Shown here: piece after piece, positions 26,633 through 26,844 of the stretch
How positions within the stretch are numbered: position 1 is the first letter of the stretch
How the letters are laid out: each line of letters begins with the position of its first letter
NCBI GenBank assembly: GCA_017556795.1
Contig: JAFYLZ010000005.1
Coordinates: forward strand, 1 to 64,000
Source of the DNA: Candidatus Saccharimonadota bacterium
GTDB taxonomy: Bacteria; Patescibacteriota; Saccharimonadia; Saccharimonadales; Saccharimonadaceae
Reading direction: 5' to 3'
Length of the DNA: 64,000 bases
Notes under the pieces: generated by a model
Told to the model about the DNA's origin: nothing
The model's database searches: none
What the model saw: only the letters and a program-made list of their open reading frames with translations
Program-made: the position numbers and the translations under genes

Positions 26633-26774
26633 TGGTAGTCCGGCGCTCTAATATCTTGCCTTTGGCAAGATATATCGCTAGCCGTCCTTCCACAAAATCA
26701 CGATAGGCTACGCCTATCTTTTTGTTGCGAAGCAACAAAAAAAGAAGCGAAGCTTCTTGTGATTTCGTGGTAGT
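26633..26774. repeat. Multi-hairpin palindromic element at the 3' end of tRNA-Met/Ile(CAT)
   Basis: TGGTAGT at 26633-26639 repeats the tRNA 3' end (26768-26774; ACTACCA on the minus strand). Between them: hairpin ATATCTTGCC/GGCAAGATAT (26651-26673); then an outer stem CCACAAAATCAC (26690-26701) with GTGATTTCGTGG (26759-26770, one mismatch) enclosing three perfect hairpins at 26702-26718, 26719-26741 and 26742-26758. The outer stem includes the encoded CCA. Confidence 0.85.
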
Positions 26775-26844
26775 ACCGACTGGGATCGAACCAGTGACCT
26801 TGGGCTTATGAGTCCCACGCTCTAACCATCTGAGCTACGGTACC
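26768..26844 (-). tRNA. tRNA-Met or tRNA-Ile2 (CAT)
   Basis: Acceptor GGTACCG pairs with CGGTACT; anticodon loop CTCATAA gives CAU; encoded CCA. The anticodon stem has an A-G mismatch at its loop end. It is not an initiator tRNA by its acceptor pair. Elongator Met or lysidine-modified Ile cannot be separated by eye. TATAAT lies 10 nt upstream. Confidence 0.85.

Follow-up and report, generated by a model that had tools for sequence, protein, structure and literature searches.

A two-module palindrome directly behind the CCA end of tRNA genes: a candidate small mobile element in a genus of Saccharimonadaceae

No landing places of bacterial mobile DNA are better known than transfer RNA genes, and the mobile elements known to us that visit them bring an integrase. 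The window, that is, the whole stretch of 64,000 nucleotides analyzed here, belongs to contig C5 (JAFYLZ010000005.1) of a 674-kb genome (labelled G000), and it raises the question of what a folded structure of 135 bases is doing directly 3' of the CCA of a tRNA-Met(cat) gene on the minus strand. We favor, with modest confidence, the answer that this structure, which consists of two modules (D1 and D2), is a small palindromic insertion element, non-autonomous and about 125-150 bp long, whose place is immediately 3' of the ACCA at tRNA ends. Its features are the following.

26768 to 26844, minus strand: tRNA-Met(cat), the proposed target, with its CCA at 26770-26768 (ARAGORN, Rfam).
26690 to 26770, minus strand: D1 including its closing bases, a 12-bp outer stem round three hairpins (sequence and folding).
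26770-26759 and 26701-26690, minus strand: the outer stem, CCACGAAATCAC against GTGATTTTGTGG, 12 pairs, one of them G-T.
26742 to 26758, minus strand: hairpin 1, 7 bp, loop TTC, followed by a T-run; resembles an intrinsic terminator on the tRNA strand (folding, pattern scan).
26719 to 26741, minus strand: hairpin 2, 10 bp, in which the T-run of hairpin 1 pairs with the A-run preceding hairpin 3 (folding).
26702 to 26718, plus strand: hairpin 3, 7 bp, with a T-run behind it on the plus strand; terminator-like for the opposite strand (folding, pattern scan).
26633 to 26691, minus strand: D2, 59 bases, an imperfect palindrome GGAA..AGCGATA-hairpin-TTAGAGC..TACCA (covariance models R1 and R2, 18-sequence alignment).
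26673 to 26679, minus strand: AGCGATA, conserved internal-loop motif, 5' side (alignment).
26645 to 26651, minus strand: TTAGAGC, conserved internal-loop motif, 3' side (alignment).
26652 to 26672, minus strand: the variable hairpin of D2, 9-10 bp (folding, alignment).
26633 to 26639, minus strand: terminal ACTACCA, of which (T)ACCA is the element's own end (comparison of copies).

The two modules are interlocked: the 5' arm of the D1 outer stem begins with the tRNA-Met CCA itself, and the GG at 26691-26690 is at once the last GG of D1 and the first GG of D2. An earlier sequence-only reading had described a 12-bp outer stem that uses the tRNA CCA and encloses hairpins of 7, 10 and 7 bp with no bases between them, and coordinates and folding agree with this description; the link to the CCA is general, holding in all 20 complete copies that we compared (see below). 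The GCGAAGC core to which that reading drew attention is present in two hairpins on the plus strand but is not a conserved feature, because the loops differ among copies. A 10-bp hairpin and an ACTACCA, which it had set apart, both exist, but as parts of module D2 (26691-26633), and the full seven-base match of ACTACCA to the host tRNA end is not general among copies. Folding is far better than that of shuffled sequence both as minus-strand RNA (-85.3 kcal/mol, z -9.6, none of 200 shuffles as good) and as DNA (z -9.0). The initial observation on D1-D2 was right and lies beyond chance. An Rfam search returned tRNA only above the gathering score and otherwise weak chance matches.

Relatives of the element were found by several routes. 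Within G000, BLAST revealed a second copy, which follows tRNA-Val(tac); a third, behind tRNA-Ile(gat), emerged when the regions 3' of its 44 tRNAs were all inspected. A family-wide BLAST search with the complete element as query yielded no convincing places other than the two in G000. Because sequence identity is too low for BLAST, covariance models were used. At E 0.1 the first D2 model, built from the three G000 copies, matched 13 genomes out of 174 from the same genus; in nine of the 13, E was below 1e-5. The second, built from 18 sequences, matched at least 8 of 295 family genomes, all of the same genus, a lower bound given that 18 of at least 186 first-look candidates per listed genome were scored; it added G104 and G286. 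Relatives of D2 are thus present in at least 11 same-genus genomes (nine at E<1e-5 plus the two from the second model). The sequence-only reading had staked itself on conserved or covarying copies elsewhere, and covariance search of related genomes gave many.

All 24 convincing sense-strand matches to D2 (18 at E 1e-4 or better with the first model and six new ones from the second) lie downstream of a tRNA, on the same strand and within about 0.4 kb. Their hosts are tRNAs for Met, Val, Ile, Lys, Glu, Ala, Pro, Leu and Arg, and sequence comparison shows the element dispersed over many tRNAs. Twenty copies are complete. Eighteen stand directly behind a tRNA called by ARAGORN, and the other two behind a tRNA cut by the contig edge (G380) and behind an 18-base copy of a tRNA-Glu end (G204). 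This set leaves out the second tandem D2s (G380, G225, G323), G292 (L137), the G204 unit behind Arg (L141), G311 (L142), antisense matches and the weak matches in G237, G345 and G310. Genomes in which complete copies were found have one to five, every one behind a tRNA gene.

An exact-motif search of GTDB contigs returned 48 stretches, all of which we judged to be chance: none has the D1-D2 fold and none has a genuine tRNA, one odd call with a four-base anticodon aside. Viral contigs gave no match to two patterns, both strict. A literature search, with most subscription papers outside its reach, found no paper on the element, and the accessible parts of PMC13059738 and PMC3942034 contain nothing bearing on it.

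What the copies have in common is a fold more than a sequence. In 19 of the 20 complete D1s the predicted structure is a four-way junction with exactly three hairpins inside a 10-13 bp stem starting at the CCA; the odd one out, the G249 copy behind Ile-tat, has a rod as its minimum free energy structure and was counted as a miss. Among 178 element-free tRNA flanks from the same genus, three show the same three-hairpin fold (a second tRNA lies in at least one of these three), as do 5 of 890 shuffles. Mean identity of D1 between genomes is 59-60%, compared with 47% for shuffled sequence. For D2, the 18-sequence alignment has 41 cells changed on both sides of a pair and one changed on one side, with a covariation score of 0.328 (0.114 for shuffles, at most 0.096 for slid partners). 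Within D2, TACCA is invariant throughout, as are parts of GGAA, AGCGATA and TTAGAGC; AGCGATA and TTAGAGC are opposed in an internal loop between the covarying helices. Comparison of these sequences shows that arms are replaced without loss of the four-way-junction fold.

The edges of the element are equally regular. The homologous block among copies begins right after the CCA and stops at TACCA, with ACCA before the element and TACCA at its end in 20 of 20 copies (30 of the 44 tRNAs in G000 have ACCA). ACCA is repeated because the element follows one ACCA and supplies another within its terminal TACCA. D2 is closed in 20/20 copies by pairing of its first GG with its own terminal CC. In 17 of the 20, this GG also pairs with the CC of the tRNA CCA, which closes D1; in the other three that second pairing is shifted by one base. 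Since this GG pairs with either CC, one TGG can, by prediction, hold the tRNA end or the element's right end.

Bearing on movement, G201 has five copies behind five tRNAs. Four of these are 73-85% alike, whereas their 130-nt flanks (before the tRNA and after the element) are 46-56% alike, which is background level; the fifth, behind tRNA-Met, is 56-64% like the others. In three of the five (Met, Ala and Val) the element is followed by a terminator-like hairpin, recognized by eye, that looks as though it had been displaced downstream. Empty sites exist for sister classes of unit with the same architecture behind tRNA-Met: in relatives lacking the unit, the flanks align to the first bases after the CCA (L195 against L197 and L169, L202 against L201, L167 against L165). 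For D1-D2, neither flank comparison nor the gene behind a G201 copy, which was found in 1 of 170 genomes (G201 itself), gave a clean empty site. At Ile(tat), G000 is without D1-D2 but a gene lies between, and at Glu(ctc) G000 and G286 have different units before an apparently orthologous gene. We saw no larger, autonomous version of D1-D2 with an internal gene. It also speaks against an insertion element that insertion at tRNA ends only needs more than a four-base target.

Among known systems, the closest likenesses are to REP sequences and to IS200/IS605 elements, and D1-D2 is most likely a REP-like or IS200/605-like non-autonomous element specialized on tRNA ends. As far as the accessible part of PMC8266576 describes REP/BIME sequences and TnpA-REP, the two share short imperfect palindromes with a conserved mismatch, an extragenic position and tandem or mosaic arrays; D2 is 53-63 nt long and is preceded on the plus strand by GTAG (9/20) or GTAA (11/20). 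Judged by the same part of that source, D1-D2 differs from REP/BIME in lying solely behind tRNA genes, in the at most five complete copies seen per genome and in its extra module D1, and from a REPtron in that G000 has no Y1 transposase (TnpA-REP). It is not a REP member, because two defining features, many intergenic copies and TnpA-REP in the genome, are lacking, yet it may work like one. IS608 and its relatives, according to the portions available of PMC5934647 and PMC8266576, have hairpin ends, insert 3' of a tetranucleotide that is retained in the left flank and recognize their cleavage sites through base pairing with guide sequences located 5' of the hairpins. By the first of these (in part), the ACCA before all 20 copies may correspond to the fixed tetranucleotide 3' of which IS200/IS605 elements insert without further target duplication, although no clean empty site was found for this class, and the shared GG takes the place of a guide 5' of a hairpin foot by predicted pairing. 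Unlike the IS200/IS605 elements treated there, D1-D2 has neither tnpA nor tnpB, one GG apparently serves both ends, and the target is a tRNA end, whereas that of IS608 is TTAC anywhere (PMC5934647, same portion). By analogy, the guide logic would be like that of IS608 with the enzyme missing. The element would then fold as single-stranded or cruciform DNA, and the shared TGG would be a guide choosing both target and right end, as in IS200/IS605 and REP.

The sequence-only reading had allowed for a stable RNA, which the pairing disfavors. D1 has G-U in 10 of 694 pairs on the tRNA strand and, read on the opposite strand, in 4 of 689, compared with 66/879 in 101 ordinary tRNA terminators from the same flank set (p 4e-9 against D1) and 102/1052 in the 44 tRNAs. 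These terminators replaced a control drawn from the whole window (16.8% G-U), which was dropped because its hairpins had not been checked for lying inside genes. The rarity of G-U on both strands favors pairing as DNA, because an RNA under selection should permit G-U on its own strand; arms copied from each other during replication could likewise avoid G-U.

A terminator role would account for part of D1. A G+C-rich hairpin followed by a T-run, the usual pattern of an intrinsic terminator, is found on both strands (26758-26742 minus, 26702-26718 plus), and only in the inner hairpins; to this extent the earlier statement that the structure is not a terminator does not hold. Among the 19 junction-forming copies, the end of hairpin 1 has at least five T in the surrounding 11 bases in all 19, and the start of hairpin 3 at least five A in 18. 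Hairpin 1 with its T-run and hairpin 3 with its A-run are a predicted two-way intrinsic terminator, which accounts for the inner hairpins in a simple way. The whole of D1-D2 could then be a bidirectional intrinsic terminator or 3'-end module, kept for RNA reasons and spread by gene conversion, in which transcription of the tRNA would stop at hairpin 1 and convergent transcription at hairpin 3, and the outer stem would keep the CCA covered as the tRNA matures. We consider this unlikely. The terminator-like sites on both strands and the T-rich and A-rich edges fit it, but the far arm of the outer stem and D2 would fall beyond the termination point, G-U is equally rare on the opposite strand, and D2 and its repeats are left unexplained. 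The G204 copy lies 8 bases before tRNA-Arg(cct) with a weak T-run (TTTTA) and still folds; because it keeps the junction despite that T-run, the D1 fold is more than a terminator. If D1-D2 is an insertion element, its inner hairpins would be a two-way terminator replacing the one pushed away by insertion.

The 3' ends of tRNA genes are classical att sites of integrative elements, and the E. coli tyrT repeats also contain tRNA-end copies (a literature search on the latter gave nothing of use). D1-D2 is similar to both in having direct copies of a tRNA 3' end downstream of the tRNA. It might therefore be a scar or minimal island of tyrosine-recombinase integration, perhaps by a housekeeping Xer-like enzyme, with the tRNA-end repeats as att sites. 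Other units in the genus do end in exact 11-22 nt copies of the host tRNA end, and a protein with the Phage_integrase domain was found in 24 of 24 genomes surveyed (12 bearing D1-D2, one of them, G311, by a weak match only, and 12 non-bearing), each with one strong match to an Xer-like tyrosine recombinase. Still, this origin seems to us quite improbable. D1-D2 is far smaller than tRNA-end integrative elements, has no integrase and repeats little beyond ACCA in most copies; the identity block of an integrase island, which runs from inside the tRNA to its 3' end and recurs at the element's far end, is absent from most D1-D2 copies and present in other unit classes. Scars are not expected to conserve folding, 8 of the 12 bearing genomes have the one Xer-like protein only, and extra integrases are no commoner in bearers (4/12 versus 7/12).

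The enzyme survey also bears on how an insertion element would move. In G000 one Xer-like tyrosine recombinase is the sole protein with the integrase domain, and neither a Y1 transposase (PF01797) nor a reverse transcriptase (RVT_1) was found there. PF01797 matched in 2 of the 24 genomes, the one match over the cut-off being a remnant in G249 with a 75-aa ORF, and no bearing genome examined has an intact Y1 TnpA gene. RVT_1 occurs in 6/12 bearing and 8/12 non-bearing genomes. As candidate mobilizers, tyrosine integrase, Y1 transposase and RVT_1 show no association with D1-D2 in the 12 versus 12 comparison, and D2 is absent from 30 loci around such genes. The enzyme would act from elsewhere; an Xer-like enzyme, a lost Y1 enzyme or another enzyme is possible.

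Lastly, palindromes at tRNA ends might be made and renewed by template switching at replication hairpins, with no mobile element involved. This would suit the near-perfect arms that turn over whole (the G347 and G249 Ile copies are 98% alike in D2 and 61% in D1), the near absence of G-U and the tandem repeats. It explains neither the conserved D2 motif, nor the presence of one element behind different tRNAs, nor the edges at CCA and TACCA, and we regard it as very improbable.

Copies of tRNA ends are not confined to D1-D2. In 12 of 70 tRNA-Met flanks, 7 or more bases of the 3' end of the tRNA itself recur within 300 bases, compared with 1.3 expected from shuffles, 1 found on the reverse strand and 3 in 68 upstream flanks; of these 12 copies, 11 end at about 51-65, 94-95 or 135 bases and the twelfth (L199) at 20. 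In G000, 9 of 44 tRNA flanks have a direct 7-mer copy of the tRNA end (0.83 expected; upstream control 5/44), and inverted copies are not enriched (1/44, 1.43 expected). In other genera, copies of at least 7 nt are present in 17 of 48 flanks, but we give these no weight as evidence, because many of them are ends of the following tRNA or of the alanine hairpin described below. By eye, several classes follow the plan CCA - D1 - TGG - D2 - ACCA with different D2 cores. D1-D2 is one member of a wider habit of the genus.

These units are varied. One of 51-59 bases consists of a T-run/A-run hairpin followed by a GCGGAACTTCGTAAAC or GGAGCGTCCCAAGGGGCAAAC core, with ends that match the host tRNA; it is found behind tRNA-Met at L163, L173, L193, L194, L195 and L205 and in the Cys and Thr(cgt) flanks of G000, with empty sites in relatives of L195. 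At L321, L316, L271, L291 and L267 (tRNA-Ile) and at L164 and L167 (tRNA-Met), there are units that repeat 12-22 nt of the host tRNA exactly (T-arm side plus 3' end), with a hairpin put into the T-loop; L321 has two such units in tandem. On contig C4 of G000 (L092), tRNA-Thr(ggt) is followed by a T-run and a 5'-truncated tRNA-Thr-like copy ending in the same GCGGCTCCA. The Glu-Arg-Arg tRNA cluster of G204 (L141/L156) has units ending in long copies of the own tRNA 3' end behind Glu and Arg(cct), and D1-D2 lies between Glu and Arg(cct). Behind tRNA-Pro(ggg) of G292 (L137), palindromes bounded alternately by CCA and TGG extend over about 400 bases, and among them is a minimal D2 of 23 bases, TGGAAAGCGCGAAGCGCTTACCA.

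A different unit, a 36-37 nt hairpin ending in ACCA with the acceptor stem of tRNA-Ala (GGGGU..ACUCC), occurs near tRNA-Ala/Ile in several genera (L278:1590-1626, L311:658-694, L282:1672-1708, L296:915-950, L332:283-318 and others). Across 19 distinct sequences, with three parts of real tRNAs excluded, 97.4% of cells have the named pairs formed, and 17 changes affect both sides; since the search pattern already required G3-U70, the conservation of that pair is no independent test. Rfam made no call on these units at the loci checked. G3-U70 has an identity role in tRNA-Ala, and the hairpin looks like a candidate natural gene for an alanine minihelix.

Beyond the insertion element that we favor, we tentatively raise a more far-reaching proposal, itself rather unlikely in full: that D1-D2 represents a new class of DNA-folded mobile element, whose internal TGG pairs with the universal ACCA and joins target and right end on one guide, which brings a two-way terminator, moves with no dedicated transposase and forms layered arrays across the genus. 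An element of 135 bp that arrives exactly at the CCA, pairs with the CCA and brings a terminator, with no enzyme shown, would represent in minimal form the use of a universal tRNA-gene feature for targeting. It would allow testing whether folded DNA alone marks tRNA ends for a borrowed enzyme, and it would account for the clutter of hairpins behind tRNA genes in small-genome bacteria.
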